A DNA stretch of 64,000 nt, taken from Pseudohoeflea suaedae (lineage in GTDB: Bacteria; Pseudomonadota; Alphaproteobacteria; Rhizobiales; Rhizobiaceae). Below the pieces are notes generated by a model that saw nothing but the letters and a program-made list of their open reading frames with translations, was not told the origin of the DNA and searched no databases. A program made the translations under genes and the position numbers. This document shows positions 38,194 through 54,506 of the stretch, piece by piece. Location of the stretch: NCBI RefSeq assembly GCF_004354915.1, contig NZ_SMSI01000001.1, positions 868,001-932,000 on the forward strand, given 5' to 3'. The stretch's first letter is position 1, and each line of letters starts with the position of its first letter.

Positions 38194-39636
38194 TCAGTGT
38201 CCCTCACCCTGTGCGACCATATCGGCGCCGATTGCCTTCTTCTCCTTGTAAATCGCGGACGGATTACGGGAGGAGATGAGACCGCGCGGTTTCCAGACCA
38301 TGATGAGAACCATGGCGAGGCCGAAGATCAGCATGCGGTACTGGGTCGGATCGAAATTCGAACCGAAGATAGCTTGCAGGAAGTCGAGGTTACGCAGCAG
38401 TTCGATGCCGCCGATCATCACGATGGAGGCGATGACGACACCGATCTGCGAACCAAGACCACCGAGAACCACGATCGCGAGGATGATCGCGGATTCGAGG
38501 AAGGTGAAGCTTTCCGGTGAAATGAAGCCCTGACGGGTGGCGAAGAAGGAGCCCGCAAGGCCGCCGAACATCGCGCCGGTCGAAAAGGCGGTCAGCTTGG
38601 TGTTGGTGGTGTTGATCCCCAGCGAACGGCAGGCGATCTCATCCTCGCGCAGAGCTTCCCAGGCGCGGCCGATCGGCATCTTGCGCAGACGCATGGTGAT
38701 CAGGTTGGTCGCGATCGCCAGTATGAAGATGATGTAATAGAGGAAGATGAAGCGCTGGATGGAATCGTATTCGAGTCCGAAGAAGTCGGCAAAGCCGCCT
38801 TCGCCGCGCGTGAATTCGAGGCCGAACAGCGTCGGCTTCGGAATGCCGGACACGCCGTCGGGGCCGCCGGTGAACTCGTACCAGTTAAGCAGCACCACAC
38901 GGATGATCTCACCGAAGGCGAGCGTCACGATCGCGAGGTAGTCACCCCTCAGACGCAGGACGGGGAAGCCCAGGATCATGCCCCAGAATGCCGCCAGGAT
39001 GCCTGCCAGAGGCAGGGCGATCCAGAAGCCGATGAAGTCGAAATGCGTCGCAAGAAGCGCGAACGAATAGGCGCCCACTGCGTAAAACGCGACGTAGCCG
39101 AGGTCGAGAAGGCCGGCGAGGCCCACCACGATGTTCAGTCCCCAGCCGAGCATGATGTAGGTCATGATCAGGATTGCGAGGTCGATGAACTGGCGGTCGC
39201 GACCGGGGAAGAAATAGACGAAGAAGAAGGGCAGGATCACCGCGAAGGCGAAGAGAATGCGGCCCAGCCACGTGCCGAGGCCGGGGACGGCGACGGCACT
39301 GACGACCTTGTTGCCCGCGCCTTTCGCCTTGCCGCCGCGGAAGAACAGGCTGATCGCCAGCCGTCCGCCGAAGACGACGATCATGGAGATGATCCAGAGC
39401 GCCCAGCGTGTGGTGACTTCCAGACCGCCCGGCGCGATGTCGGTGCGGATGGCGAGGAAGAAGAAGCCGAGAACGCCGGCAAGCAGAGCTGCGATTGCTG
39501 CGTCCTTGATGGCGGCGGCGTAGGAATTTGCGGGATCGTCAGCCGGGAGATTGGGGGCAGCCAGACGCTCTTCGCGTTTGATCTGCGCCCCTTCCGGATG
39601 GTTGACGTCCGCCGGTTGGGTATCGTTGCTGGACAT
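38194..39636 (-). CDS. livM: branched-chain amino acid ABC transporter permease
   Basis: A 480-residue permease. The N-terminal 150 residues include a polar, cytoplasmic lead (about 1-45) and extra helices, as in longer LivM proteins. The core carries GLAGLLDLGYVAFYAVGAYS, LRGDYLAIVTLAFGEIIR and the ATPase-contact loop RMRKMPIGRAWEALREDEIA, read in the sequence as LRKMPIGRAWEALREDE. The start overlaps the livH stop (TAATG), and livG begins two bases after its stop. Confidence 0.93.
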   Translation of the reverse strand: MSSNDTQPADVNHPEGAQIKREERLAAPNLPADDPANSYAAAIKDAAIAALLAGVLGFFFLAIRTDIAPGGLEVTTRWALWIISMIVVFGGRLAISLFFRGGKAKGAGNKVVSAVAVPGLGTWLGRILFAFAVILPFFFVYFFPGRDRQFIDLAILIMTYIMLGWGLNIVVGLAGLLDLGYVAFYAVGAYSFALLATHFDFIGFWIALPLAGILAAFWGMILGFPVLRLRGDYLAIVTLAFGEIIRVVLLNWYEFTGGPDGVSGIPKPTLFGLEFTRGEGGFADFFGLEYDSIQRFIFLYYIIFILAIATNLITMRLRKMPIGRAWEALREDEIACRSLGINTTNTKLTAFSTGAMFGGLAGSFFATRQGFISPESFTFLESAIILAIVVLGGLGSQIGVVIASIVMIGGIELLRNLDFLQAIFGSNFDPTQYRMLIFGLAMVLIMVWKPRGLISSRNPSAIYKEKKAIGADMVAQGEGH

Positions 39637-40565
39637 TAGACTTTCTCGACTTCAGGCTTTCCGAGCAGGCCCGACGGCATGAAGATCAGCACGATCGCCA
39701 GGATCGAGAATGCCGCCACGTCCTTGTACTCAACGGTGAAATAACCGGACCAGAGGGTCTCGATGAGGCCGATCAGCAGTCCTCCGAGCATGGCGCCCGG
39801 CAACGAACCGATACCGCCAAGCACAGCTGCGGTGAAGGCTTTCACCCCGGCGAGGAAGCCGATGTAGAAATCGACCACGCCGTAGAGAAGCAGGAACATC
39901 ATGCCGGCGACGGCGGCGAGCGCCGCGCCCATGACGAAGGTCAGCGAAATCGTGCGGTCGACGTTGACGCCGAGAAGCGCAGCCATCTTCTGGTCCTGCT
40001 CGCAGGAGCGCTGAGCGCGGCCGAGCGGAGTCTTGGCGATCAGCAGCGAGAAGCCGACCATGAGGAGGAAGGTCACGCCGATGATGATCATCTGCATGTA
40101 GGAGAGCTGAACGGCGATGGTGCCGGCTTCCGTGCTGCCCTCCATCAGGGTGATGCCGCCGGAAATCTGCGGCGGAAGCGGCTTGACGCGCGCACCCTGG
40201 GTGACCTGCACGAAATTCTGCAGAACGATCGACATGCCGATTGCGGTGATCAGCGGCGCCAGCCGGAACGAGCCGCGCAAAGGCCGGTAGGCCAGGCGCT
40301 CGACGGTCCAGCCCCAGGCCGAGGTGAACAGCATCGACACGATAAGGACGATGAGCAGAACCAGCGGCAGGAAGGCGAAGCCGAAAATCGAAGTGAGTAT
40401 GAGAAATACGGCGAGGGCGATGAAGGAACCGACCATGAAGACGTCGCCATGGGCGAAGTTGATCATGCCGATAATGCCATAGACCATCGTATAGCCGATG
40501 GCGATCAGACCGTAAATCGATCCGAGGGTCAGCCCGTTGATGAGCTGCTGGATCAGGTATTCCAT
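39636..40565 (-). CDS. livH: branched-chain amino acid ABC transporter permease
   Basis: A 309-residue permease and first gene of livHMGF. ATG 40565 gives the canonical start MEYLIQQLINGLTLGSIYGL; the frame upstream of it is not conserved-looking. Other family segments are NFAHGDVFMVGSF, the EAA-like loop TPLGRAQRSCEQDQKMAALL, and GGIGSLPGAMLGGLLIGLIE. About eight membrane helices are predicted. The gene overlaps livM by one base. Confidence 0.94.
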   Translation of the reverse strand: MEYLIQQLINGLTLGSIYGLIAIGYTMVYGIIGMINFAHGDVFMVGSFIALAVFLILTSIFGFAFLPLVLLIVLIVSMLFTSAWGWTVERLAYRPLRGSFRLAPLITAIGMSIVLQNFVQVTQGARVKPLPPQISGGITLMEGSTEAGTIAVQLSYMQMIIIGVTFLLMVGFSLLIAKTPLGRAQRSCEQDQKMAALLGVNVDRTISLTFVMGAALAAVAGMMFLLLYGVVDFYIGFLAGVKAFTAAVLGGIGSLPGAMLGGLLIGLIETLWSGYFTVEYKDVAAFSILAIVLIFMPSGLLGKPEVEKV

Positions 40566-40907
40566 GAAAGTTGTTACCCTGTATTTGTTTATTGGCGAGT
40601 ACTTGGACGTACCCGCATCCCCTACGCGCATCTTCCACAAGAATGGCGCCGTCGCAAATCAAAAATTGCAAAGTCGGGAAGATTCCTGCCCAATTCACAG
40701 CCACTGCCGCGATGGCAGGACGGCATGCGAATGAATTGAGCGGGCCACTCCGGCCGGAAAACAGGGCGTCGCAGGCAGGCGGCGAGGCGGGACATGCTTG
40801 ATCTGGAAAGGTGAGCCGCGTAACACGGTTCAAGCCGGAACAATCCGGAGAATCGGTTGCAGTTCGAGTCACCCGAGAACGCTGAAAAATTTCTGGAGTC
40901 TCGTTCC
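40566..40907. other. divergent intergenic region, livH / glycan island
   Basis: This 342-base gap should hold promoters for both directions. Visible elements are a small CTGCC-GCGAT-GGCAG hairpin near 40712 and CCGGA-ACAA-TCCGG (40836-40849), which overlaps the ribosome-binding region of a possible TTG start at 40857 for the next gene. I see no gene and no clear sigma-70 hexamers. Confidence 0.35.
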
Positions 40908-41621
40908 ATGAAAGCCCTCTCGAATTCGGTCATCGAGAAAATCCGGCGCAACCGCATCTCGACGTCGGAAGTCACGGATTGCCTTGGAAAGACCGGGGTG
41001 CTCAAAGGCGTTTCTGCGCTGAACCCACGCCATTTCCGGGTCGGACCTGTCCGGCTTGTCACGGCGTGGAATTGCAGCAACTGGGAGCTCCACGAACAGG
41101 CGAGTGCGGTTCAGCCCGGCGAAATCGTCATCTTCCACGCATTCGATTACGAAGACTACGCCATGTTCGGCGCATTGGTCGCCAAGTTCCTGCTTCTGTA
41201 CCGCGAAGCGGCAGCCCTCGTCGTCTGCGGCCTCGTGCGCGACGCGCACACTCTGAAGATGGAGAACTACCCCATCTGGTGCGAAGGGGTGACGCCGGTC
41301 GGCGCGCTCAATCGCAAGAATTCGGCGCCGGAACCCGCCGAAGCCGAGGAATTGCGCCGCCGCTACGACGGCGCGATCGCCGTCTGCGATGATTCCGGTG
41401 TCGCGATCATCGGTAAGGAGTGGATGACGGAAGACTTCCTTGAGCGGCTCGATTTCATCGAGCTCCAGGAAGATGCCTGGTTCCACTGCATCGATACCGC
41501 CGGCATGACGACTTACGAGACCGTCTGCGAGAAGAAATATTTCGACGAGAAGAGCGTGTTCTCGCGCTTCGACCGGCTGCGCGAGGGATCGCCGCTGGTT
41601 TCCGGGGAGACCAAGGAATGA
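40908..41621 (+). CDS. RraA-like (HMG/CHA aldolase fold) family protein
   Basis: A 237-residue protein with the RraA/4-hydroxy-4-methyl-2-oxoglutarate aldolase fold. STSEVTDCLGKTGVL is the family's opening motif, and GLVRDAHTLKMENYPIWCEG keeps the Arg-Asp pair and the proline-turn found in true aldolases of the group, so catalysis is possible. It is longer than RraA (about 160) through an extended C-terminus, and FHAFDYEDYAMFGALVAKFL replaces the usual active-site entrance. ATG 40908 has GGAG nine bases upstream; TTG 40857, with GGAG six bases upstream, would add 17 residues and is a real alternative. It heads a four-gene operon and overlaps the next gene by four bases (ATGA). The substrate is unknown. 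Confidence 0.75.
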   Translation: MKALSNSVIEKIRRNRISTSEVTDCLGKTGVLKGVSALNPRHFRVGPVRLVTAWNCSNWELHEQASAVQPGEIVIFHAFDYEDYAMFGALVAKFLLLYREAAALVVCGLVRDAHTLKMENYPIWCEGVTPVGALNRKNSAPEPAEAEELRRRYDGAIAVCDDSGVAIIGKEWMTEDFLERLDFIELQEDAWFHCIDTAGMTTYETVCEKKYFDEKSVFSRFDRLREGSPLVSGETKE

Positions 41622-42352
41622 AGGACGATCGCGCGGAGTTCAGCGAACAGGCGAGGCGCGACGCGATTGCCCTCGGGCAGGACGACGCCCTCAACCGCGA
41701 CGGGCTCCACCTGATGCGCGAAGCCGGCAAGCACCGCTTCACCTATCTCTGGAGCTGGCTTGGCGTGCCGATCATCCAGGTCCCGTCCGATGTCGTCGCC
41801 ATGCAGGAAATCATCTGGGAGACCAGACCGGATATCATCATCGAGACCGGCATCGCCCGTGGTGGAAGCGCGATCTTCTTTGCGTCGATGATGCAGCTCC
41901 TCGGACGCGGTACGGTGATCGGCGTGGATATCGATATCCGCGCCCATAACCGCGACAGCATCGAGAGCCATCCGCTCGGCCACAGGGTCCGTCTGATCGA
42001 GGGATCGTCGACCGACCCGGAGATCGTCAGCACCGTCAGGTCGATGATCGAGCCGGGTGCGAAGGTCATGGTCATCCTCGATTCCGATCACTCCTATGAG
42101 CATGTGAAGAATGAACTGGCGGCTTACGCGCCCCTCGTTACCGAGGGCCAGTTCATGATCGTGGCCGATACGGGGCTGGCGATCGAGACGGACAACTTCA
42201 CGCCGCCCCACGGCTGGGGCAACGGCAACGACCCGATGGCGGCCATGGACGAGTTTCTCCAAGGCAGCGACCGGTTCGAGATCGATCCGGTCTATAACGG
42301 CAAGATGCTGATGACGAGCTCGCCGCGCGGCTATCTGCGCTGCGTCAAATAG
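41618..42352 (+). CDS. CmcI-like (cephalosporin hydroxylase / rhamnosyl O-methyltransferase) family protein
   Basis: A 244-residue Rossmann-fold protein of the CmcI family, whose known members are SAM-dependent O-methyltransferases or act in cephamycin and rhamnosyl modification. The SAM-binding motif is IIIETGIARGGSAIFFASM (73-91), the second-strand acid GVDIDIRAHNRD (102-113), and the metal/catalytic-type motif VILDSDHSYEHVKNEL (152-167). Position inside a cluster with glycosyltransferases and another methyltransferase suggests methylation of a sugar hydroxyl. It overlaps the RraA-like gene (ATGA), and the amidohydrolase gene follows after 18 bases. Confidence 0.82.
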   Translation: MKDDRAEFSEQARRDAIALGQDDALNRDGLHLMREAGKHRFTYLWSWLGVPIIQVPSDVVAMQEIIWETRPDIIIETGIARGGSAIFFASMMQLLGRGTVIGVDIDIRAHNRDSIESHPLGHRVRLIEGSSTDPEIVSTVRSMIEPGAKVMVILDSDHSYEHVKNELAAYAPLVTEGQFMIVADTGLAIETDNFTPPHGWGNGNDPMAAMDEFLQGSDRFEIDPVYNGKMLMTSSPRGYLRCVK

Positions 42353-42370
42353 AGTGATTTCGGGGGCGGC

Positions 42371-43156
42371 ATGAGCGGATTGTTCGATTCCCTGTCCCAT
42401 CCCACCCTGAGCGGTCGATGGTTCGCGCGCGATCTCGATGCCGGCTGGCAGGCGCTCGTCAAGCGCCTGCGCGAAAGCGGTTACAGCCGTGCCTGTGCCG
42501 TTGGCCTGGCCGGTGTCGAGGGCTATGAGCACGAGGCCTTCATCGAGGCCTGCCGGCCTTATGCCGAACTCGTCCCGATCGCCGGGATCGATCCGCGTGG
42601 CGATCTCGTGGCCGAGCTGCGCCGGGTCAAGCAGCTCGGTTTCAGCGGCATCAAGCTGCATCCGCGACTTTCCGCCTTTGCCATGGGCGATGATTGCCTG
42701 ATCGAGGCCTTCCGGGCCGCCCGCGCCGTCGATCTGCCGGTCTTTCTCTGCACCTACTGCCATGGTCCGGTGGAGCGGGCGCCGCTGGAAGATCCCCTCT
42801 ATGGCCTGGCCCGCGCATTGCGCGCAGTGCCGGACATCCGCCTCGTCCTGCTGCATGGCGGCGACGTGGAGCTCATGCGCTACATGCAGCTGGTGAGACA
42901 TTCGCCCAACATCCTGATCGACCTGTCCTTCACCATGATGAAATACACCGGCAGCTCGCTCGATCTCGATCTCGCCTATGTCATGCGCGGTTTCAACCGC
43001 CGCACCTGTTTCGGTGTCGACCACCCCGAATACACCCATGCGGAGGTGCGCACCCGTTTCGACGCGCTGTCCGCTGGATTGTCCCCCGAAGAGCGCGCCA
43101 ATGTGGGGTTCAACAATCTGAGCCGTTTCCTGCGCTTGCCGGAGCCCGCCGAATGA
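42371..43156 (+). CDS. amidohydrolase-superfamily TIM-barrel protein
   Basis: A 261-residue protein resembling the amidohydrolase_2 (ACMSD-like) group. Later metal-site motifs are visible: IKLHPRLSAF with His97, VLLHGGDVEL with His162 and FGVDHPEYTHAEV with Asp217-His218. The N-terminal HxH motif is not canonical; the equivalent stretch reads FDSLSHPTL (residues 5-13), so the first metal ligand pair may be missing or altered. It could be a decarboxylase or hydrolase acting on a cyclic or acyl substrate, or a catalytically modified member. It overlaps the next methyltransferase gene by four bases (ATGA). Confidence 0.75.
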   Translation: MSGLFDSLSHPTLSGRWFARDLDAGWQALVKRLRESGYSRACAVGLAGVEGYEHEAFIEACRPYAELVPIAGIDPRGDLVAELRRVKQLGFSGIKLHPRLSAFAMGDDCLIEAFRAARAVDLPVFLCTYCHGPVERAPLEDPLYGLARALRAVPDIRLVLLHGGDVELMRYMQLVRHSPNILIDLSFTMMKYTGSSLDLDLAYVMRGFNRRTCFGVDHPEYTHAEVRTRFDALSAGLSPEERANVGFNNLSRFLRLPEPAE

Positions 43157-43821
43157 AGGATGACGAATGGGACCGGATGCGGGCGATGTATGCCGCGCGG
43201 CTGGCCGAAACGGGTTATTCGCCCGAGACGCTGGGCTGGACCAAGCCCAAGCATCGCCTTCGCTACAAGATCCTGGTGGATTACTGGTTCGGCGGCCCCG
43301 ATCCGCTCGACGGCTCGGCGAGCCTTCTGGATTTCGGCTGCGGCTTTGGCGATCTTGCCGTCTATTGCGCAGCGCGCGGCCTCGACGTCGATTATCACGG
43401 TATCGACTTGAGCGAGGATCTGGTCGCCGCGGGCCGCAGGGTCTTTCCGCATCTCGATCTGGAAGCCGGTTCGCCGATCGAGGATGGGCTGGACAGGGTC
43501 TATGACGTCATCGTCTCGTCAGGCGCGCACAATTACGCGCTCACGGACAACGAAGCCTATATCCGCCGGACGTTCGAACTCTTCGACGCGTCCTCGCGTT
43601 GTGGCTTCGCGATCAACTTCCTGTCGGACCGGGTCAATCACCGCAACGCCGGGAACTACTACGCCAGCCCCGCATGGGTTCTCGATCTCGCCTTGTCCCA
43701 TTCGCGGCGTGTCGAGATCCGGCACGACTACATGCCCTTCGAATTCACGGTCTTCGTCGACAAGCGCAGCGATTTCGGCGATCTGACGGTTTTTGCGCCC
43801 TTCGAGGCGGATTGCGGCTAG
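43153..43821 (+). CDS. class I SAM-dependent methyltransferase
   Basis: A 222-residue methyltransferase. Motif I is LLDFGCGFGDLAVY (58-71), the second acidic residue is in YHGIDLSEDLVAAGR, and motif IV-like VYDVIVSSGAHNYAL follows. The last third (GFAINFLSDRVNHRNAGNYY, FEFTVFVDKRSDF) is typical of small-molecule or lipid/glycan methyltransferases. ATG 43153 overlaps the amidohydrolase stop. The stop is one base from the convergent ATP-grasp stop. The acceptor is unknown. Confidence 0.85.
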   Translation: MKDDEWDRMRAMYAARLAETGYSPETLGWTKPKHRLRYKILVDYWFGGPDPLDGSASLLDFGCGFGDLAVYCAARGLDVDYHGIDLSEDLVAAGRRVFPHLDLEAGSPIEDGLDRVYDVIVSSGAHNYALTDNEAYIRRTFELFDASSRCGFAINFLSDRVNHRNAGNYYASPAWVLDLALSHSRRVEIRHDYMPFEFTVFVDKRSDFGDLTVFAPFEADCG

Positions 43822-43822
43822 G

Positions 43823-45025
43823 TCATTCCATTTCGAGCCGGATGGCGGCGAGAGCAGCCCTGGCGCGTTCAAGTGCCTCCTGGCGATCGGCGCCGCCGGT
43901 CACTGCCCAGCCATGACGGGCATTGTCATGGCTGACCGCTCCTCCCGTGTCACCGGGCCGGATGGTCAGTCCGATCGTTGCGACACCCGGATGGTTCCTC
44001 GCCGCCTCAAGGCCATCAGCAGCAATGAAGCGCCCCGCGGGTGCCGCGAGAAACCGGTAGCAGGCGCCTCCGGACTTCCGTGGCGCGGGATCGACATCCC
44101 ACCGCAGGAGAAGCCGGGCGAGAACCACGGGCGCATCGAGGCCGCTTGCCTGTTCGATCGCATGGGCGAACAGATGTCCGCCGCCGGGGCGCGCACCGAT
44201 TTCGACGAGATGGACGCCGTCGTCCGAAACAATGCACTCGCAATGAAAGGCGCCCTGGCGATGGCCGACGGCTTCGATGGCCCCGGCAACGAGCGCGCGC
44301 GCCTCCGCGATCACCGCCGCCGGATAATTTGCCGGGTAATTGAGGCTCATGTTCACCCGGTAGCGGTCATGGTCCTGAAACTCGACGTCGCCGATCATGC
44401 TGAACGTCACATGACCGTCGTTGACGAAGCCGTCGCAGGTCAGGAGAGGGCCGTCGATGAAGCGTTCGACGATGCAGCCGTGTGAACCCGAGTGGCGGAG
44501 CGCGCCGTCGATCGCCTCGTCGAGCTGGTCGTGGCGGGTGACCACCGAAACCCCCTTGCTCGCCCAGGACCGGCGGGGTTTGATCACGGCGGGCAGCCCG
44601 ATGTCGTGCACGGCGCGACGAAGCCCGTCTTCCGTATCCGCCAGTCGAAAATCGGGCTGACACAGGCCTGCCTGTTTCCAGGCCTGGCGCATCCTGCCCT
44701 TGTCGAGGCAGTTGAGCGCAACCTCGACCCCGATACCCGGCAGGCCGAGTTGTTGGCTTGCGGTAGCGGCTGCCAGAACGCCGGCCTCGGTCGCGGCCAT
44801 CACGAGGTCGGCGCCACAGCCGCGCGCCGCCTCGGTCACCGCATCGGCGTCCTCGATGCTGCCGAAAATGCTGCCGTCGGCGATGGCATGGCCCGGCGCG
44901 TCTTCGTTGCGGTCCATCGCGATGACGCGAAACCCGCCCCGTTTCAGGCTCTCGATCGCCTTGACCAGAGGCTCGCCGGCCGCAAGCAGCAGGATCGTCG
45001 CTTTCCGTGTGTGAGCGTGGGTCAT
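43823..45025 (-). CDS. ATP-grasp domain ligase
   Basis: A 400-residue ATP-grasp enzyme of the PurK/BtrJ/carbamoyl-phosphate-synthase-like type. It has an N-terminal preATP-grasp Rossmann part (ILLLAAGEPLVKAIESLKRG, then GADLVMAATEAGVLAAATAS). The ATP-binding lysine segment is AVIKPRRSWASKGVSVV, the metal-binding segment GAFHCECIVSDDGVHLVEIGARPGG, split here as GAFHCECIV and VHLVEIGARPGGG. Such enzymes join a carboxylate to an amine through an acyl phosphate, so it may attach an amino acid or amine to the cluster's product. It is the third gene of the minus-strand operon, 39 bases after the glycosyltransferase. Confidence 0.85.
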   Translation of the reverse strand: MTHAHTRKATILLLAAGEPLVKAIESLKRGGFRVIAMDRNEDAPGHAIADGSIFGSIEDADAVTEAARGCGADLVMAATEAGVLAAATASQQLGLPGIGVEVALNCLDKGRMRQAWKQAGLCQPDFRLADTEDGLRRAVHDIGLPAVIKPRRSWASKGVSVVTRHDQLDEAIDGALRHSGSHGCIVERFIDGPLLTCDGFVNDGHVTFSMIGDVEFQDHDRYRVNMSLNYPANYPAAVIAEARALVAGAIEAVGHRQGAFHCECIVSDDGVHLVEIGARPGGGHLFAHAIEQASGLDAPVVLARLLLRWDVDPAPRKSGGACYRFLAAPAGRFIAADGLEAARNHPGVATIGLTIRPGDTGGAVSHDNARHGWAVTGGADRQEALERARAALAAIRLEME

Positions 45026-45064
45026 GGAGAGCCCTCAAGGCAGACGAAACGGCAAGGTGCAGCC

Positions 45065-46234
45065 CTATTTGAGCCGGCCCTCGAGCAGGTGAACGGGAAA
45101 CAGCATTCCATCGATCATCTCGTAATATTCGCCGGCGCTTCCGGTGTCGCCCATGCCCATGTCGATATAGAGCTTGTCTTCGTGCAGCCCGACATAGCGC
45201 GGCACTTCGGGGCGCCATTTGAACTCCGGCCTGAAGCTCTTGAGAGCATCCTTGCCGCGCCATTCGGCAATGGCTTCGCCATAGGCGCTTTTTCGGGCAT
45301 CGAATTGGTCCCTGTCGACGGTGGTCTCGCAGTCCTTCGCGCATGCTGCGATGAAATTGTCTTCCCAACCGGACAGTTCGATCCCGTATTTCTGCTTGAA
45401 GCGCTCGATCGTGTGGCCGATGGAGGCGGTAATTCCGAGATCTGCGGGGAACGGGAAGCCGTCCGCGTAAAAGCCCTCCGCGTTCTCGGCGAGAAACTGC
45501 GCGGAGCGTTCCGCCGCGAGGCTTCGATCGCGCAAGGCCATGGTATTGGAGGCGCGGCAGGTGCCGAAGACCGAGAGCGGGCGTTCCCACAGGACGAAGT
45601 TGCGCGCCAGCATCACCACCTTGCAGATATTGTCGTAGTCCAGGTTGCCATGCTCGAAATAGCGGCCGGAGAAGGTTTCCCTGATCTGCTCGAGAAGGCT
45701 GCGGCGAATGGTGCCGTGATAGATGCCGAACGGGCAGCCGGGACGGTCCGTCGCCTGGTCCCAGAAGAACATCCGCTTCATCAGGTCCTTTTTCTCCAGA
45801 CCGTGCAGATGGCTCGAGGTCGGCAGCGTCGTGATCTCCCGCTCCGCGCGCGCGTCCGGCCATGTGTAGTAGGCCCGGCCCCAGGAGATCGAATCCACGG
45901 TCTCCACCCGTGCGGTCGCCACCCGGATGATCTCGCAGAGTTCAGGATCGACGTAATCGTCGTCCCCGATATAGGTGATCCATTCTCCGGATGTCTCGGG
46001 AACGATCCGCTCCCAGTTTTCCAGCATCGTCAGCGGTCGATCCGCAGGCGGTATCATCTTGAGCCGGCTGTCGGCCGCTTCCGCGACGAAGGCCGATATG
46101 GGGCGGGGATCATCCGAGTTGTCGCCGATGACGATCTCGAAATCGTCACGCTCCGACTTGAGCATGTGGCGCGCGGCGTCAATGGCATAGGCTTGCCTGT
46201 TGCGCGTCGGAATGCAGATCGACAGAATGGTCAT
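45065..46234 (-). CDS. family 2 (GT-A) glycosyltransferase, copy 2
   Basis: A 389-residue cytoplasmic glycosyltransferase. The nucleotide-sugar domain opens SICIPTRNRQAYAIDAARH, with VIGDNSDDPR and the metal-binding DDD at 91-93 (ITYIGDDDYVDPEL). The C-terminal part (YFEHGNLDYDNICKVVMLAR, FGTCRASNTMALRDRSLAAE) is shared with the upstream gene, so the two are tandem paralogues. No membrane helix is seen. It overlaps copy 1 by four bases (ATGA) and is followed by the ATP-grasp gene. Donor and acceptor are unknown. Confidence 0.87.
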   Translation of the reverse strand: MTILSICIPTRNRQAYAIDAARHMLKSERDDFEIVIGDNSDDPRPISAFVAEAADSRLKMIPPADRPLTMLENWERIVPETSGEWITYIGDDDYVDPELCEIIRVATARVETVDSISWGRAYYTWPDARAEREITTLPTSSHLHGLEKKDLMKRMFFWDQATDRPGCPFGIYHGTIRRSLLEQIRETFSGRYFEHGNLDYDNICKVVMLARNFVLWERPLSVFGTCRASNTMALRDRSLAAERSAQFLAENAEGFYADGFPFPADLGITASIGHTIERFKQKYGIELSGWEDNFIAACAKDCETTVDRDQFDARKSAYGEAIAEWRGKDALKSFRPEFKWRPEVPRYVGLHEDKLYIDMGMGDTGSAGEYYEMIDGMLFPVHLLEGRLK

Positions 46235-47436
46235 CGCGCAAAAGTCCTTGCGCCGGAGATCACGAGATCGACCGGCAGCATGGCGTGTTCGCCGAAACGG
46301 TAGAATTCTCCGGGTGTCTCGACCTTGAGCGTGTTTTCACGAATATAGAGCACCTTGCCGATCACGCCGCTCGTCTGGTTGAGGATCCGTTCGCCGGGCG
46401 CGAAGGGCGGCGGAGCGAAGGCCGATGCCCATTTCCCGCCTTCCCATTCCGCAAAACCGCGGCGAAATGCGGCGACCTTCTGCTCGTATTCTTCCTTGTC
46501 GCGCGAACTGAGGCATTCCTTGGTCGCTGCGGCGGCGAAATTCTCGGGGAAGCCGGTGAGGTCGAAGCCGTAGGTCTTGCAGAACCAGTAGGTCGTGTGG
46601 GCCACGCTCACGCAGACCGAGCTGGTTTCATCCGATATCGTGAACGGAAAGTCCGGATGTTGCGGCGGCACGTTCCCCTTCGTTTCCTCGATGAAGATGC
46701 GTGTGCGCTCGAGCCGGATGTCGCGGTTCTGCGCCGCGGCCGAGTTCGAGGAGGCGCAAGCGCCGAGAACCGAGAAACCGCGCTGGCAGTGAACCATCAG
46801 CTTTGCTTCGGCCAGCACCTTGCAGGAATTGTCGTAGTCGACATTGGGATGTTCGAAATAGCGGTTGCCGAATTTGCGCTTGATGCGTTCCATCAGCGTG
46901 CGCTTGACCGCTCCGTGATAGATCCCGAAGCCGGCCGATGGGCGTCTGTCCCGTTCGCTCCAGCGGTAGAGCCTGTCCTGGTCCGGCTTCTTTCGTCCGA
47001 CGAGGACGCTGAATGCGCAGGGTATGGTCGCCAGTGTCGGGCGGGTGCGGTTATCCGGCCAGTTGAAGTTCATCCGGCTCCAGCCGATCGCCTCCACACC
47101 GTTGTAGAGCTTCTCGAAGCTTTTCAGCAGACCGGTGACGCGCGGATCGATGTAGTCGTCGGCGCCGATGACGACGATCCAGCGACCCGACGTTTCGGGA
47201 ATGGTCCTTTCCCAGTTGTCGACCATGGAATAGACGCGCTCGCCCGGCGGCAGCAACCGGAAACGGTCATCGTGGAAATCGTTTGCGAAAAATTCGGCCA
47301 GCACCGAAGGATCATCGGAATTGTCGGCGACGACGACCTCGAAATCCTGGCCCTCGTTTTGTGCGAGAGCCCGTATGGTTTCTATGCAATAGCGCTGCCG
47401 GTTCCGTGTCGGCACGCAAATCGTCAGGTCTGTCAT
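46231..47436 (-). CDS. family 2 (GT-A) glycosyltransferase, copy 1
   Basis: A 401-residue glycosyltransferase paralogous to the next gene: TICVPTRNRQRYCIETIRAL, VVADNSDDPSVLAEF, the metal site VIGADDYIDP (ADD at 92-94), and the shared C-terminal block YFEHPNVDYDNSCKVLAEAK plus VLGACASSNSAAAQNRDIRL. It lacks membrane helices. The frame is open to 47475, but ATG 47436 gives the family start MTDLTICVPTRNRQ. It is the first gene of the three-gene minus-strand operon. Confidence 0.87.
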   Translation of the reverse strand: MTDLTICVPTRNRQRYCIETIRALAQNEGQDFEVVVADNSDDPSVLAEFFANDFHDDRFRLLPPGERVYSMVDNWERTIPETSGRWIVVIGADDYIDPRVTGLLKSFEKLYNGVEAIGWSRMNFNWPDNRTRPTLATIPCAFSVLVGRKKPDQDRLYRWSERDRRPSAGFGIYHGAVKRTLMERIKRKFGNRYFEHPNVDYDNSCKVLAEAKLMVHCQRGFSVLGACASSNSAAAQNRDIRLERTRIFIEETKGNVPPQHPDFPFTISDETSSVCVSVAHTTYWFCKTYGFDLTGFPENFAAAATKECLSSRDKEEYEQKVAAFRRGFAEWEGGKWASAFAPPPFAPGERILNQTSGVIGKVLYIRENTLKVETPGEFYRFGEHAMLPVDLVISGARTFAR

Positions 47437-47541: not shown

Positions 47542-48900
47542 TCACTCGTCGATTTCTTCGGGAAGGACGAGGTTGAGAATGATTGCAATCGTGGCCGCGG
47601 GCAGAAGCCCTGTCGTCAGCAGCATCTGGGCCGTGTTGCCCAGATGCTGGAGCGCGCTCGGTTCGAGTTGCAGGCCGAGGCCGATCGATAGCGAGATCGC
47701 GAAGATCACCATGTTGCGGCGGTTCCAGTTCACGTCGGCCAGCATTCGCACGCCCGACGCGCAGACCATGCCGAACATCACCACGACGCCGCCGCCGAGA
47801 ACGTTGATCGGCACGGTGTTGATGACGGCGCCGATTTTCGGAATGAAGCCGCAGACGATGAGGAAGATCGCGCCGATGGTGACGACATGGCGGCTCATGA
47901 GCCCGGTCATGGCGATCAGCCCGACATTCTGTGAGAAGGAGGTGTTGGGCAGGCCACCGAAGACGCCGGCCACCGCGGTGCCGAGTCCGTCGGCGAACGT
48001 GGCGCCTTCGAGCTCCTCGTCGGTGGCTTCGCGTCCCGCGCCACCCTTGGTGATGCCCGACGTGTCGCCAACGGTCTCGATCGCCGAGATCACCGCCATG
48101 AAACACATGCCGATGACGATGGCGATGTTGAACTCGAAACCCCACTTGAAAGGCATGGGAAGCTCGAAGAAGCTCGCCCGGCCGACATTGCCGAAACTGA
48201 CCTGACCCATCAGCAGCGCGACGACGTAGCCGGCCAGAATGCCGATCAGCACGGCGGCGACGGCGAGAAAGCCGCGGGTGAAGAACTTGATCGCGAGCGT
48301 GACCACGATCACGACGAGCGCGGGGAACCACATCGAGAGAGAGCCGAATTCCGGCTTGCCCATCAATGGCACGCCGCCGGCGGAGTACTGGATGCCGACC
48401 CGGATCAGCGCCAGGCCGATCATCAGCACGATGAGACCCGTCACCAGAGGCGGGAGGGCATGCCGGATCTTGCCGACGATGAAACCGAGGCAGAAGTGGA
48501 AACATCCGCCGACGATGATCCCGGTCATCAGCCCGGCGAGACCCGCGGTGCCGAGCCCCGCGACAGCCGGGATCATGATCGGAACGAAGGCGAAGCTGGT
48601 GCCCTGGACGATCGGCAGGCGCGCGCCGACGGGGCCGAAGCCGATGGTCTGGAACAGCGTGGCGATGCCGGCAAACAGCATCGACATCTGGATCATGTAG
48701 GTCATGTCCGGGAAGCCCAGCGCGCCCTGATCCGAGCCGAAACCGATCCCCGCCGCGCCGGCAATGATGATGGCCGGCGTCACGTTGGACACGAACATCG
48801 CGAGAATATGCTGGATGCCGAGCGGCACGGCCTGCGCCAGTGGCGGTGTGAAATTCGGATCGCGCCGTTGTTCGGCCGTTCCCATGGTCGCATCAGTCAT
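47542..48900 (-). CDS. NCS2-family purine (xanthine/urate) permease
   Basis: A 452-residue nucleobase:cation symporter-2 protein with about 14 membrane segments. It carries LAMFVSNVTPAIIIAGAAGI, the TM10-like signature ATFADGLGTAVAGVFGGLPN followed by TSFSQNVGLIAMTGLMSRHV, and GGGVVVMFGMVCASGVRML. The GLPNTSFSQN-type motif and the FG..xNxG pattern fit the xanthine/uric-acid branch rather than uracil. The allantoicase gene upstream on the same strand supports purine or urate import. It is 106 bases downstream of the allantoicase gene and may be part of its operon. Confidence 0.88.
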   Translation of the reverse strand: MTDATMGTAEQRRDPNFTPPLAQAVPLGIQHILAMFVSNVTPAIIIAGAAGIGFGSDQGALGFPDMTYMIQMSMLFAGIATLFQTIGFGPVGARLPIVQGTSFAFVPIMIPAVAGLGTAGLAGLMTGIIVGGCFHFCLGFIVGKIRHALPPLVTGLIVLMIGLALIRVGIQYSAGGVPLMGKPEFGSLSMWFPALVVIVVTLAIKFFTRGFLAVAAVLIGILAGYVVALLMGQVSFGNVGRASFFELPMPFKWGFEFNIAIVIGMCFMAVISAIETVGDTSGITKGGAGREATDEELEGATFADGLGTAVAGVFGGLPNTSFSQNVGLIAMTGLMSRHVVTIGAIFLIVCGFIPKIGAVINTVPINVLGGGVVVMFGMVCASGVRMLADVNWNRRNMVIFAISLSIGLGLQLEPSALQHLGNTAQMLLTTGLLPAATIAIILNLVLPEEIDE

Positions 48901-50718: not shown

Positions 50719-52497
50719 ATGAACTCTGAAAAGATCGAGAAAACCGCAATCGATGCGCCGTCCAGGCTCAGGCACGGCGTGCGCCAGCTTCTCGATTTCA
50801 TCTATCCGGACAAGGCGTCCGACGAGCTCGTCCAAACGGTCATCGATGCCTTTTACGGCAGTTCCGCTCCGCGCCGGCGTGCGCGCGTACCCGGCAACAG
50901 TTTCTGGAGCGAGCGCGACAACTACGTCATTACCTACGGCAACACGATCTATGACGGCGAGCACAATCCGCTCGACGTCTTGCGGCACTTTGCCGAGACC
51001 CATCTCGCCCCTGTCTTCAAGGGCATTCACATCCTTCCCTATTTTCCGTTCACATCCGATGACGGTTTCGCGGTCACCGACTATCGCGAGGTCAATAGCC
51101 GCCTCGGCTCATGGGAGGATATCGGTCGCATCGCATCGAAGTTCCGGCTGATGAGCGACCTTGTGCTCAACCACTGTTCAAGCCAGTCGAAGATGTTCAG
51201 CGACTATCTTCAGGGGCACGCGCCTTACGACAGGTTCTTCTACGAAGCCCTGCCGACCGATGATGTGAGCATGGTGACGCGGCCACGGACCCATCCGCTC
51301 CTGAGGGAGGTCGAGACGGCCAACGGCGTGAAGCACGTCTGGTGCACGTTCAGTCACGACCAGGTGGATTTCGACTTTTCCAATCCCGATGTGCTCGTCG
51401 AGTTCATGGACATCCTGTCCTATCATGTCGCGCGCGGGGTGCGGACGATCCGCATGGATGCGGTGGCCTTCATCTGGAAGGAACTCGGCACCACCTGCAT
51501 CCACCTGCCGCAGACCCATGCCATCATCCGGCTGGTCCGGCTTCTGGCCGATTTCCATCCCGAGCTGATCATCCTCATCACCGAGACCAACGTTCCGAAC
51601 CTGGAAAATCTCTCCTATTTCGGCAATCGCAACGAAGCGCATGCGATCTACAATTTCTCTCTGCCTCCGCTGCTGCTTCATGCACTGCTGAACGGCACTT
51701 CGCGCTATCTCAATGCCTGGCAGATGCGCATGCCGCCGGCTCAGCTCGGCTGCGCCTATTTCAATTTCTCCGCCTCTCACGACGGCATCGGCGTCCGCCC
51801 GGCAGAGGGGTTGATACCGGATGAGGAGATCGGCGGCATGATTGCCGCGATCGAGAGCTTCGGTGGACTGGTGAGCTATCGTTCGCTGCCCGACGGCGGC
51901 AAGAAGCCCTACGAGATCAACGTCTCCCTCTACGATGCCTTAGCGGGCACGACCGAAGGGCCGGACGAGTATCAGTTCGAACGCTTCATCCTGAGCCAGG
52001 CGATCGTCTTGTCGCTGGAAGGCATCCCGGCCTTCTACATTCACTCGCTCGTGGCAAGTCGCAACGATCTCGAAGGCGTCGGGCGGCTTGGCTACAATCG
52101 CGCCATCAACCGCAGGGCGATCGATTCCGCGACCCTGCTCGACGATCTTGCTGATGAAACCAGCCTGCCGGCGCGCACCTTCACGACCATCAAGTCGATG
52201 CTTCAGATCCGTTCCCGCCAGGAAGCGTTTCATCCGAACGCCACGCAATTCACCCTGCAGCTGGGGGAACAGTTCTTCGGCTTCTGGCGCCAGAGCCTCG
52301 ACCGCTCGCAGAGCATTTTCGCGATCTTCAATCTCACCGCGGAAGAGACGACCATTCCATTGATGTCGCTGAACCTGATTGGCGGCGATCACTGGGAGGA
52401 CATCCTGACCGGTGAAATCATCCGGATGAACGCCACCGATATATCCTTCCGCCCCTATCAGGCGCGCTGGATCACCAACAACCGAAAGCCCTCATGA
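50719..52497 (+). CDS. GH13_18 sugar phosphorylase, probably glucosylglycerate phosphorylase
   Basis: A 592-residue (beta/alpha)8 enzyme of the sucrose-phosphorylase subfamily of GH13. The nucleophile is Asp247 in TIRMDAVAFIWKELGT, the acid/base Glu289 in LIILITETNVPNLENLSYFG, and the transition-state residue is in NFSASHDGIGVRPAEGLIP. It begins an operon with a HAD phosphatase (overlap of four bases) and a GpgS-like synthase. That makes glucosylglycerate the most likely substrate, converted with phosphate to glucose 1-phosphate and glycerate. Sucrose phosphorylase is the alternative; it is usually about 490 residues, shorter than this. Confidence 0.82.
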   Translation: MNSEKIEKTAIDAPSRLRHGVRQLLDFIYPDKASDELVQTVIDAFYGSSAPRRRARVPGNSFWSERDNYVITYGNTIYDGEHNPLDVLRHFAETHLAPVFKGIHILPYFPFTSDDGFAVTDYREVNSRLGSWEDIGRIASKFRLMSDLVLNHCSSQSKMFSDYLQGHAPYDRFFYEALPTDDVSMVTRPRTHPLLREVETANGVKHVWCTFSHDQVDFDFSNPDVLVEFMDILSYHVARGVRTIRMDAVAFIWKELGTTCIHLPQTHAIIRLVRLLADFHPELIILITETNVPNLENLSYFGNRNEAHAIYNFSLPPLLLHALLNGTSRYLNAWQMRMPPAQLGCAYFNFSASHDGIGVRPAEGLIPDEEIGGMIAAIESFGGLVSYRSLPDGGKKPYEINVSLYDALAGTTEGPDEYQFERFILSQAIVLSLEGIPAFYIHSLVASRNDLEGVGRLGYNRAINRRAIDSATLLDDLADETSLPARTFTTIKSMLQIRSRQEAFHPNATQFTLQLGEQFFGFWRQSLDRSQSIFAIFNLTAEETTIPLMSLNLIGGDHWEDILTGEIIRMNATDISFRPYQARWITNNRKPS

Positions 52498-53279
52498 CCT
52501 CTCGCATGATCGTGTTTTCTGATCTGGACGGCACGCTCTTGGACCACGAGACCTATTCGTTCGACGCGGCGAAACCGGCGCTCGAACGGCTGAAATCCGA
52601 AGGGCACGTTCTGGTGCTGGCGTCTTCCAAGACAGCCGCCGAGATCGCGCCGCTGCGGGAGGCTATGGGCTTTGCCCATTGCCCGGCAATCGTGGAAAAC
52701 GGTGCCGGACTTCTGCAGGCGGGTGAAAGCGGTGAGACCTGCGATGGATCGGCGCATGAGGCGATCCGGGCCGCTCTTTCCGATCTGCCTGAGCGACTGC
52801 GCTCTCGTTTCGAGGGTTTTTCCGATTGGGGCATCGCGGAAATCGCGCGCCGCACCGGGTTGGCGCCGGAACAGGCCGAGAAGGCAGCGAGGCGGCGCTT
52901 CTCGGAGCCCGGCGTCTGGTCCGGTTCCGATACGGAGCTCGAGGAATTCGTTACCCGGCTTTCGAAGTCGGGAATTACGGGTGTGAGGGGAGGGCGGTTC
53001 TTCACCCTGTCGCATGGTTCGACGAAGGCATCGCGGATGGAAGCTGTCCTTGCGATGTATCCCGATGCCGGCAAAGTTCCGAAGACCGTGGCGCTCGGCG
53101 ACGCGCCGAACGACGTCCCGATGTTGGAGAACGCCGACCTCGGGATCATAATCGCAAACCGTGCACATGCGGGGATCGGATCCCTCGGGAGCGAGGTGAG
53201 CGGAAAGATCATCCGTTCGGTGAAGTTCGGTCCCGAAGGATGGAATGAAGAAATGCTGCGCGTTCTCGATACGCGCTGA
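52494..53279 (+). CDS. HAD-IIB phosphatase, glucosyl/mannosyl-3-phosphoglycerate phosphatase-like
   Basis: A 261-residue HAD phosphatase of the Cof/MPGP branch. The nucleophile motif is FSDLDGTLLD (Asp10, Asp12), motif II SSKTAAEI with the serine/threonine, and motif III/IV KTVALGDAPNDVPMLENAD. The C2-type cap (about 85-190) contains RFEGFSDWGIAEIARRTGL, a pattern of mannosyl-3-phosphoglycerate phosphatases. With the downstream GpgS-like synthase it would dephosphorylate glucosyl-3-phosphoglycerate to glucosylglycerate, a compatible solute. Its start overlaps the phosphorylase stop (ATGA). Confidence 0.87.
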   Translation: MTSRMIVFSDLDGTLLDHETYSFDAAKPALERLKSEGHVLVLASSKTAAEIAPLREAMGFAHCPAIVENGAGLLQAGESGETCDGSAHEAIRAALSDLPERLRSRFEGFSDWGIAEIARRTGLAPEQAEKAARRRFSEPGVWSGSDTELEEFVTRLSKSGITGVRGGRFFTLSHGSTKASRMEAVLAMYPDAGKVPKTVALGDAPNDVPMLENADLGIIIANRAHAGIGSLGSEVSGKIIRSVKFGPEGWNEEMLRVLDTR

Positions 53280-53294
53280 CGAACTGGAGCATCA

Positions 53295-54506
53295 ATGGGC
53301 GATTTTCAGCAACCCGGCCACGTGGCGACCCTGCACAATTTCGGAACCTGGTCGTCCTCCGATCTCGAGCGCCATGTCGAGGCATTCAGCGCGACCCGGA
53401 AGATCAACCTGATCCTCCCCTCCCTGTTCTCGGAACTGGAGGCGCCGGCACTCGACAATATCGTCAATACGCTATCGGACGTGCGCTATCTCAATCACAT
53501 CGTCATTGGTCTCGACCGCGCCAATGCCGAGCAGTTCGCCTTCGCCAAGCAATATTTCTCACGTCTGCCGCAGAAGCATTCGATCCTCTGGAATGACGGC
53601 CCGCGCCTGACCGAGATCCACAATCGTCTCGCCGAAAAGGAACTTGCGCCGCAGGAACTGGGGAAGGGGCGGAACGTCTGGTACTGCATGGGGTATAATC
53701 TGGCCTGCCGTGACAGCGAGATCGTCGCGCTGCATGACTGCGATATCGTCACCTATTCGAAGGAAATGCTCACGCGGCTGGTCTATCCGCTCGCCAATCC
53801 CTCCTTCCCCTACTACTTCGCCAAGGGCTTTTACCCGCGTGTCGCCGACGGCAAGCTGAACGGCCGGGTGACACGCCTTCTGGTCACGCCGCTCCTCATG
53901 GCGATCGAAAAGACCTGTGGCCGGACGGATTACGTCGATTACCTGCAGGCGTTCCGCTACCCGCTCGCGGGCGAGTTCGCCATGCGCACGTCGGTGCTTT
54001 CCTCGATCCGCATTCCTTCCGACTGGGGGTTGGAAATCGGCGTTCTGTCGGAAGTTTCTCGCAATCTCTCGCGCCATGCGATCTGCCAGGTCGATATCGC
54101 CGATACCTACGACCACAAGCATCAGCCGCTGTCGCAGGAGGACGCAAGCCGTGGTCTTTCGCGCATGTCGATGGATATTTCGAAGTCGCTGTTCCGCAAG
54201 CTCGCCACCGAGGGAATGGAGTTTACGGGCGGCACTTTCCGCACCATCAAGGCGGTCTATTACCGCATCGCGCTCGACATGATCGAAATGTACTACAACG
54301 ACGCGATGATGAACGGCCTGCATCTCGACCGGCACAAGGAAGAGCAGGCCGTCGAACTGTTCGCGGCCAACATCATGGAAGCCGGCAAGACCTTCATCGA
54401 CAATCCGATGGAGACGCCGTTCATCGCGAACTGGAGCCGGGTACGTTCGGCTGAACCCGACATCATGCGTGCGCTGCGCGCGGCGGTCGAGGAAGACAAC
54501 GCCTGA
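53295..54506 (+). CDS. gpgS: glucosyl-3-phosphoglycerate synthase-like glycosyltransferase
   Basis: A 403-residue GT-A enzyme resembling bacterial and archaeal GpgS. It has LILPSLFSELEAPALDNIVN at the nucleotide end, GKGRNVWYCMGYNLACRDSE, and the metal-binding DCD (148-150) in IVALHDCDIVTYSKEMLTRL. Acceptor-side segments are DYVDYLQAFRYPLAGEFAMR and PSDWGLEIGVLSEVSRNL. It would transfer glucose from NDP-glucose to 3-phosphoglycerate. It is the last gene of the operon with the phosphatase and GH13_18 phosphorylase, 15 bases after the phosphatase stop. Confidence 0.85.
   Translation: MGDFQQPGHVATLHNFGTWSSSDLERHVEAFSATRKINLILPSLFSELEAPALDNIVNTLSDVRYLNHIVIGLDRANAEQFAFAKQYFSRLPQKHSILWNDGPRLTEIHNRLAEKELAPQELGKGRNVWYCMGYNLACRDSEIVALHDCDIVTYSKEMLTRLVYPLANPSFPYYFAKGFYPRVADGKLNGRVTRLLVTPLLMAIEKTCGRTDYVDYLQAFRYPLAGEFAMRTSVLSSIRIPSDWGLEIGVLSEVSRNLSRHAICQVDIADTYDHKHQPLSQEDASRGLSRMSMDISKSLFRKLATEGMEFTGGTFRTIKAVYYRIALDMIEMYYNDAMMNGLHLDRHKEEQAVELFAANIMEAGKTFIDNPMETPFIANWSRVRSAEPDIMRALRAAVEEDNA

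Follow-up and report, generated by a model that had tools for sequence, protein, structure and literature searches.

We analysed a 64,000-nucleotide window of Pseudohoeflea suaedae (C1:868001-932000 of the 3.77 Mb genome G000), in which an island of seven genes lies between livH and a uracil/xanthine-type permease gene. Four plus-strand genes converge here on three minus-strand genes. The former code for an RraA-fold protein, a possible aldolase or decarboxylase (40908..41621), an enzyme of the CmcI/rhamnosyl O-methyltransferase type (41618..42352), an amidohydrolase-superfamily protein with a degenerate N-terminal HxH motif (42371..43156), and a class I S-adenosylmethionine (SAM)-dependent methyltransferase recognized by a domain match and by a homologue in the distant locus L100 (43153..43821). 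The latter code for an ATP-grasp ligase of the L-amino acid ligase (LAL)/PurT type with a LAL_C2 domain (43823..45025) and two GT2-family glycosyltransferases (GTs), GTb (45065..46234) and its paralogue GTa (46231..47436). All seven open reading frames are present where an earlier note on this DNA had placed them. The note is also right about the two ATGA overlaps (41618 and 43153), the overlap of the GT genes (46231-46234) and the one base that separates the convergent stops (43821 and 43823). For the RraA-like gene, the ATG at 40908 is a more probable start than the TTG at 40857: it is favoured by the codon-score caller, and the alignment of the protein to its homologues in G003 (a congener) and G657 (a distant member of the phylum) opens near it.

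The left-hand flank of the site, livH (39636..40565, minus strand), shows 94-99% identity in the congeners and adjoins the variable region in all four of them, while the right-hand flank, the permease gene (47542..48900, minus strand), shows 95-97% identity in the congeners G001 and G003. A chemotaxis-receptor-like gene is found between the GT pair and the permease in G003 (L022, 15559-17424) and in neither the window nor G001. The transporters adjacent to the island are those of the Liv and nucleobase-permease types, and no gene called in the island or directly beside it codes for a flippase, polymerase or polysaccharide exporter. This agrees with the earlier note, which had seen no local gene for transport, polymerization or carrier-lipid transfer of the product. 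Flagellar genes are found neither at the site nor among the gene types identified in the loci of relatives. A promoter/terminator scan gave no signal above chance.

Comparison of the site across the genus revealed a stable pair of transferases beside an exchanged block of genes. All four congeners have the GT pair at this site, as does Hoeflea. In G003 (L022), one of the three other congeners, the same seven genes occur in the same order, with 76-90% protein identity and with ratios of nonsynonymous to synonymous substitution (dN/dS) of 0.05-0.16 for all seven, pointing to purifying selection; hence, this is a functional locus rather than an accident of assembly. In G001 (L035) the GT pair is followed by PhyH, methyltransferase, GNAT, WbqC and CmcI-like genes, and in G002 (L036) only the GT pair and a CmcI-like gene precede livH, with other genes taking the place of the permease. 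DNA homology (blastn) with G003 runs unbroken through the cassette; that with G001 ends at 40712 and restarts seven bases inside the end of GTb, at 45072, and that with G002 ends at 40667 and restarts at 45081. The breakpoints lie where GTb ends and a short way upstream of livH, so that the five genes between them, including the ATP-grasp gene, vary together and the GT pair is retained. The ATP-grasp gene, which the earlier note had grouped with the GTs by strand, is thus placed by the comparison with the plus-strand arm. The swapped cassette, defined as the DNA not common to G001 at the site (40713..45071), measures ~4.4 kb here and is matched by ~4.1 kb of other genes there. CmcI belongs to the swapped block, as it is 89% identical to its G003 counterpart but 42-45% identical to the CmcI-like proteins of G001 and G002. 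The best NCBIfam match of the GNAT in the G001 cassette is PseH, at a score below the cut-off of that model. A recent foreign or plasmid origin of the island was rejected: GTa has no match among 72,556 plasmids, the GC content of the island genes, both overall and at third codon positions (GC3), resembles that of the flanks, and no flanking repeats resembling insertion sequences were found around the island.

The two conserved transferases match the N-terminal Glycos_transf_2 domain (PF00535; E 1.5e-11 and 2.9e-8), share 36% identity over nearly their full length, and have the acidic DD motif of the family as D93 and D94, invariant in 14 sequences. The AlphaFold2 (AF2) model of GTa (pLDDT 81.5) adopts a GT-A fold and aligns with CgT over 257 residues (Z 17.2, root-mean-square deviation 5.1); RmlT, TarS/TarP and WrtF are other GT-A enzymes near it. 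Such likeness of a predicted model does not fix the acceptor. With 75-79% identity to their counterparts in G001 and G003, as against 92-99% for the flanking genes, the GTs diverge faster than their surroundings.

A profile search with GTa, made like our other genome searches over samples of relatives, was positive in 33 of 297 family genomes. In the Hoeflea loci (L067, L070, L089 and L091) the order GT-GT-...-CmcI-livH is kept, with the permease nearby. In other genera, genes near the GTs code for a glucose-1-phosphate cytidylyltransferase, a cytidine diphosphate (CDP)-glucose 4,6-dehydratase, an RmlC-like epimerase and a sugar 3-C-methyltransferase, often with a DegT-type aminotransferase and varied cargo. 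The cargo at related GT loci includes the DegT aminotransferase, a NeuB-type synthase, a set of AMP ligase, LuxE, LuxC and FabA-like genes, another kind of ATP-grasp gene and a radical SAM gene. The dehydratase is encoded in 24 of the 33 GT-positive and 35 of the 264 GT-negative genomes (Fisher p 1.8e-12); counted by genus, it occurs in 10/12 GT-positive genera and 24/97 others (p 1.2e-4), the safer figure because the sampled genomes are related. Furthermore, in 16 genomes the dehydratase gene and a GT gene are 2.8-3.6 kb apart. Two side observations concern these loci. In L084 (G407) and L086 (G012), the two GTs enclose genes for an AMP ligase, LuxE, LuxC, a protein of acyl-carrier-protein size, a FabA-like protein, an acetolactate-synthase-like thiamine pyrophosphate (TPP) enzyme and a NeuB-like synthase, apparently another decoration cassette. 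In two Hoeflea genomes (G343, L068 8062-14770; G492, L071 3926-10590), a second GT pair of the family adjoins genes for a membrane-fusion-type protein and an RND transporter.

No gene for sugar-nucleotide synthesis is found in the island. The genome of the window does, however, encode a CDP-sugar gene set at ~696.6-701.5 kb of the same contig, ~210 kb away. It comprises a glucose-1-phosphate cytidylyltransferase (TIGR02623, 441 bits against an equivalog cut-off of 300), a CDP-glucose 4,6-dehydratase (TIGR02622, 383 bits against 278), an RmlC-like epimerase and a sugar 3-C-methyltransferase that is a close homologue of MtmC/TcaB9-type enzymes (E 1e-73), with a DegT/PseC/LegC-type aminotransferase on the other strand. 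The aminotransferase is 68% identical to the GT-linked aminotransferase of another genus, and the dehydratase and aminotransferase genes are ~3 kb apart in all four congeners. Judging from the co-occurrence described above, this unlinked operon could provide the island with its activated amino sugar. A nonulosonic acid was rejected as the sugar for the genus: NeuB-family synthases (PF03102) have no match in G000-G003, while 9/14 control genomes are positive, and since neither NeuB nor PseI is present in the window's genome, its sugar is not a nonulosonate.

Of the cassette enzymes, the RraA-like protein matches PF03737 above the cut-off (E 2e-16), and its R111-D112 aligns with the R-D signature of 3noj, a 4-hydroxy-4-methyl-2-oxoglutarate/4-carboxy-4-hydroxy-2-oxoadipate (HMG/CHA) aldolase; this R-D pair is an active-site feature of RraA-fold HMG/CHA aldolases of the LigK type. 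It does not reach the LigK equivalog model (42 bits, cut-off 304.5). CmcI matches PF04989 strongly (E 5e-76, 255.6 bits against a gathering score of 23.2) and falls far short of the rhamnosyl O-methyltransferase equivalog (105 bits, cut-off 400). The amidohydrolase matches Amidohydro_2 (PF04909, E 3e-14). The ATP-grasp ligase has an above-cut-off LAL_C2 match (E 2.8e-17) and resembles the L-amino acid ligase 3vot (E 1.6e-18); the ATP-grasp core, the LAL_C2 domain and the ATP/Mg residues of the LAL family are all found in it, and its K109, K149, E263, E275 and R279 are invariant across five cassette ligases.

The distant genome G657 (L100) has homologues of four of the cassette's five genes in one same-strand run with intergenic gaps of -4 to 79 bp: the RraA-like protein (43-45% identity), the methyltransferase (30%; E 5e-22), which lies between the RraA and ATP-grasp genes, the ATP-grasp ligase (30%) and the amidohydrolase (26-30%). 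This run also holds PseG, PseF, a radical SAM gene and another methyltransferase gene, and adjoins PseB, PseC and PseI; neither the GT pair nor CmcI is part of the locus. PseH was not found above its curated cut-off in G657 (best 35 bits of 93), a lack that is only suggestive because PseH is a divergent family, the genome is 91% complete, and PseF and PseG also fall below their cut-offs. In a Pseudoroseomonas plasmid (L098), an ATP-grasp/amidohydrolase pair occurs with a sugar aminotransferase and an HMGL-like gene, and in G925 (L099) such a pair adjoins Wza/Wzc-like exopolysaccharide genes. The ligase and the amidohydrolase therefore recur together in glycan settings, two of these with an aldolase-type gene. 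Two proteins with no Pfam match travel with the pair in L098 (5967-8503) and L099 (11871-13615), one of ~320 residues with a glycosidase-like look and one of ~258 residues with a dioxygenase-like look.

Taken together, we consider it fairly probable that a glycosylation system in two parts exists here, of which this locus forms the site with exchangeable decoration genes; the cassette would put an amide-linked, methylated group on a CDP-activated amino-deoxysugar before GT transfer. The observations behind this model are the gene content, the swap with its breakpoints, the purifying selection, the co-occurrence of the GTs with CDP-sugar genes and their linkage in relatives, and the presence of four cassette genes among pseudaminic-acid genes elsewhere. 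The earlier note's idea of an island that decorates glycans or sugars, using methylation and an amide-type ligase, is likewise supported. In the mechanism that we envisage, the enzymes of the unlinked operon would yield a CDP-activated, C-methylated amino-6-deoxyhexose. The RraA-fold aldolase or decarboxylase and the amidohydrolase may produce a short hydroxy- or oxo-acid, and CmcI, the second methyltransferase or both would methylate this acid or the sugar. The ATP-grasp ligase would then couple the acid as an amide to the amino group of the sugar, a step probably performed in the sister species by the GNAT-type acyltransferase of the alternative cassettes. Finally, GTa and GTb would transfer the decorated sugar or sugars in the cytoplasm to a putative acceptor, which might be lipopolysaccharide (LPS) or another surface polysaccharide, flagellin or a lipid. 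The order of these reactions, the acyl chemistry, the amide bond and the acceptor molecule are the parts that we infer.

The earlier note had instead envisaged a single self-contained pathway in which all seven genes make a methylated sugar conjugate independently of other loci. The recurrence of the seven genes in the same order under purifying selection in G003 would fit this, but by the condition that the note itself had set for its refutation, the parts separate in relatives: the GT pair persists without the plus-strand arm and the rest of the five-gene block in G001, G002 and all the Hoeflea loci read, while in the G657 locus neither the GT pair nor CmcI accompanies the RraA, methyltransferase, ATP-grasp and amidohydrolase genes. 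With no sugar-nucleotide synthesis gene in the island and a likely partner in the CDP-aminosugar operon elsewhere in the genome, we regard self-containment as very improbable. It is unlikely, if somewhat less so, that the two arms are merely unrelated neighbours, with surface-glycan GTs standing beside a separately inserted, natural-product-like cassette for a small molecule. Their convergent orientation, the membership of CmcI in an antibiotic-biosynthesis family and the kinship of the ligase with LAL-type enzymes that make dipeptide antibiotics such as bacilysin (a BacD match was found) would be expected under such a view; however, the cassettes at this site in other genomes consist of glycan-decorating genes, four of the cassette genes sit in the pseudaminic-acid operon of G657, and the ATP-grasp/amidohydrolase pair is found near a sugar aminotransferase or exopolysaccharide genes. 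Between these two in our estimate, and still quite doubtful, is a variant in which the cassette does decorate a sugar but the ligase first makes an acid or peptide-like side chain, which another enzyme bonds to the sugar, or in which the link is an ester. LAL-family enzymes usually join amino acids, as this variant would have it, yet no separate acyltransferase is left in the cassettes of the window and G003, unlike the GNAT-bearing cassette of G001.

Several points weigh against the exchangeable-decoration model that we prefer. The sugar operon and the island are 210 kb apart in this genome, nine GT-positive genomes have no dehydratase at the cut-off used, and the co-occurrence of the GTs with the dehydratase is no proof of a common product. 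No acceptor gene is linked to the locus. The metal ligands of Amidohydro_2 enzymes are HxH, His and Asp; the cassette amidohydrolase keeps H97, H162 and D217, with its N-terminal HxH reduced to one His. In the RraA-like protein, the GDL-box Asp of 3noj and of the G657 homologue is replaced by Ala. The textbook reactions of both proteins are uncertain on account of these substitutions. Finally, the RraA subfamily is very rare: a search for close relatives that covered 297 genomes of the order, 385 of the class and 48 of the order of G657 found them only in G000 and G657, which together with G003, known from its locus, makes three genomes in the samples, so that the cassette chemistry rests on few examples.

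A broader proposal, which we offer tentatively, is that there is an ATP-dependent form of N-decoration of nucleotide-activated amino sugars, in which an ATP-grasp ligase takes the place of the acetyl-CoA-dependent GNAT step of the PseH type and is supplied by an RraA-type aldolase, an amidohydrolase and methyltransferases, and which moves as a cassette between pathways, acting on a CDP-C-methyl-aminosugar here and on pseudaminic acid in G657. If it is true that the ligase acylates amino sugars directly, this would be a new way to diversify bacterial surface sugars. The comparison also defines a fixed position on the chromosome of Hoeflea-type bacteria at which glycan-decorating genes are exchanged in the manner of serotype cassettes while the transferases are kept, and connects it with a CDP-sugar operon at another place in the genome. 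Elsewhere in the window, consecutive genes for a sucrose-phosphorylase-like GH13 protein, a mannosyl-3-phosphoglycerate phosphatase-type HAD protein and a glucosyl-3-phosphoglycerate synthase-like protein (50719-54506) likely form a glucosylglycerate compatible-solute operon.

Among described systems, the flagellin-modification operon sfmABCDE of Shewanella oneidensis includes the ATP-grasp protein SfmE and the methyltransferase SfmD, and the change in flagellin mass on loss of sfmE is slightly smaller than that on loss of the other sfm genes (PMC3765264). As in the model proposed here, an ATP-grasp enzyme and a SAM methyltransferase build a glycan substituent from an operon with no export or polymerase genes, and sfmDE may thus be taken as a precedent for the use of this pair in glycan modification. 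Unlike the island, sfmABCDE comes with PseI-like and TPP enzymes, no RraA-like, amidohydrolase or CmcI protein is reported in it, and its acceptor is flagellin. The partner operon recalls the 3-C-methyl-deoxysugar pathways, typified by TcaB9 and MtmC and by the virenose route proposed for Coxiella LPS (PMC3539893), in combining 4,6-dehydratase and 3-C-methyltransferase chemistry, but the system here differs in its CDP carrier, in having an aminotransferase as well and in its swappable decoration cassette. With the pseudaminic acid pathway (PseB-C-H-G-I-F), it would share an amino sugar made by a PseC-type aminotransferase and then N-acylated, as its genes suggest, and homologues of four cassette genes lie in the Pse operon of G657; it differs in that the window's genome has neither NeuB nor PseI, and in having an ATP-grasp enzyme where that pathway has a GNAT.

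Our literature search found no described pathway with this exact gene combination, in keeping with the earlier note: no paper joined flagellin glycosylation, ATP-grasp and amidohydrolase, nothing combined WbqC with PhyH or CmcI with a cytidylyltransferase, and nothing was found under vinelose, while a broader search returned genome surveys alone. In organization, the site resembles the variable O-antigen and flagellin glycosylation islands, which likewise have conserved glycosyltransferases, exchangeable decoration genes and a fixed chromosomal site; the present site differs from them in having no Wzx, Wzy, ABC polysaccharide exporter or flagellar gene, and the sugar-nucleotide genes of the genus lie elsewhere.

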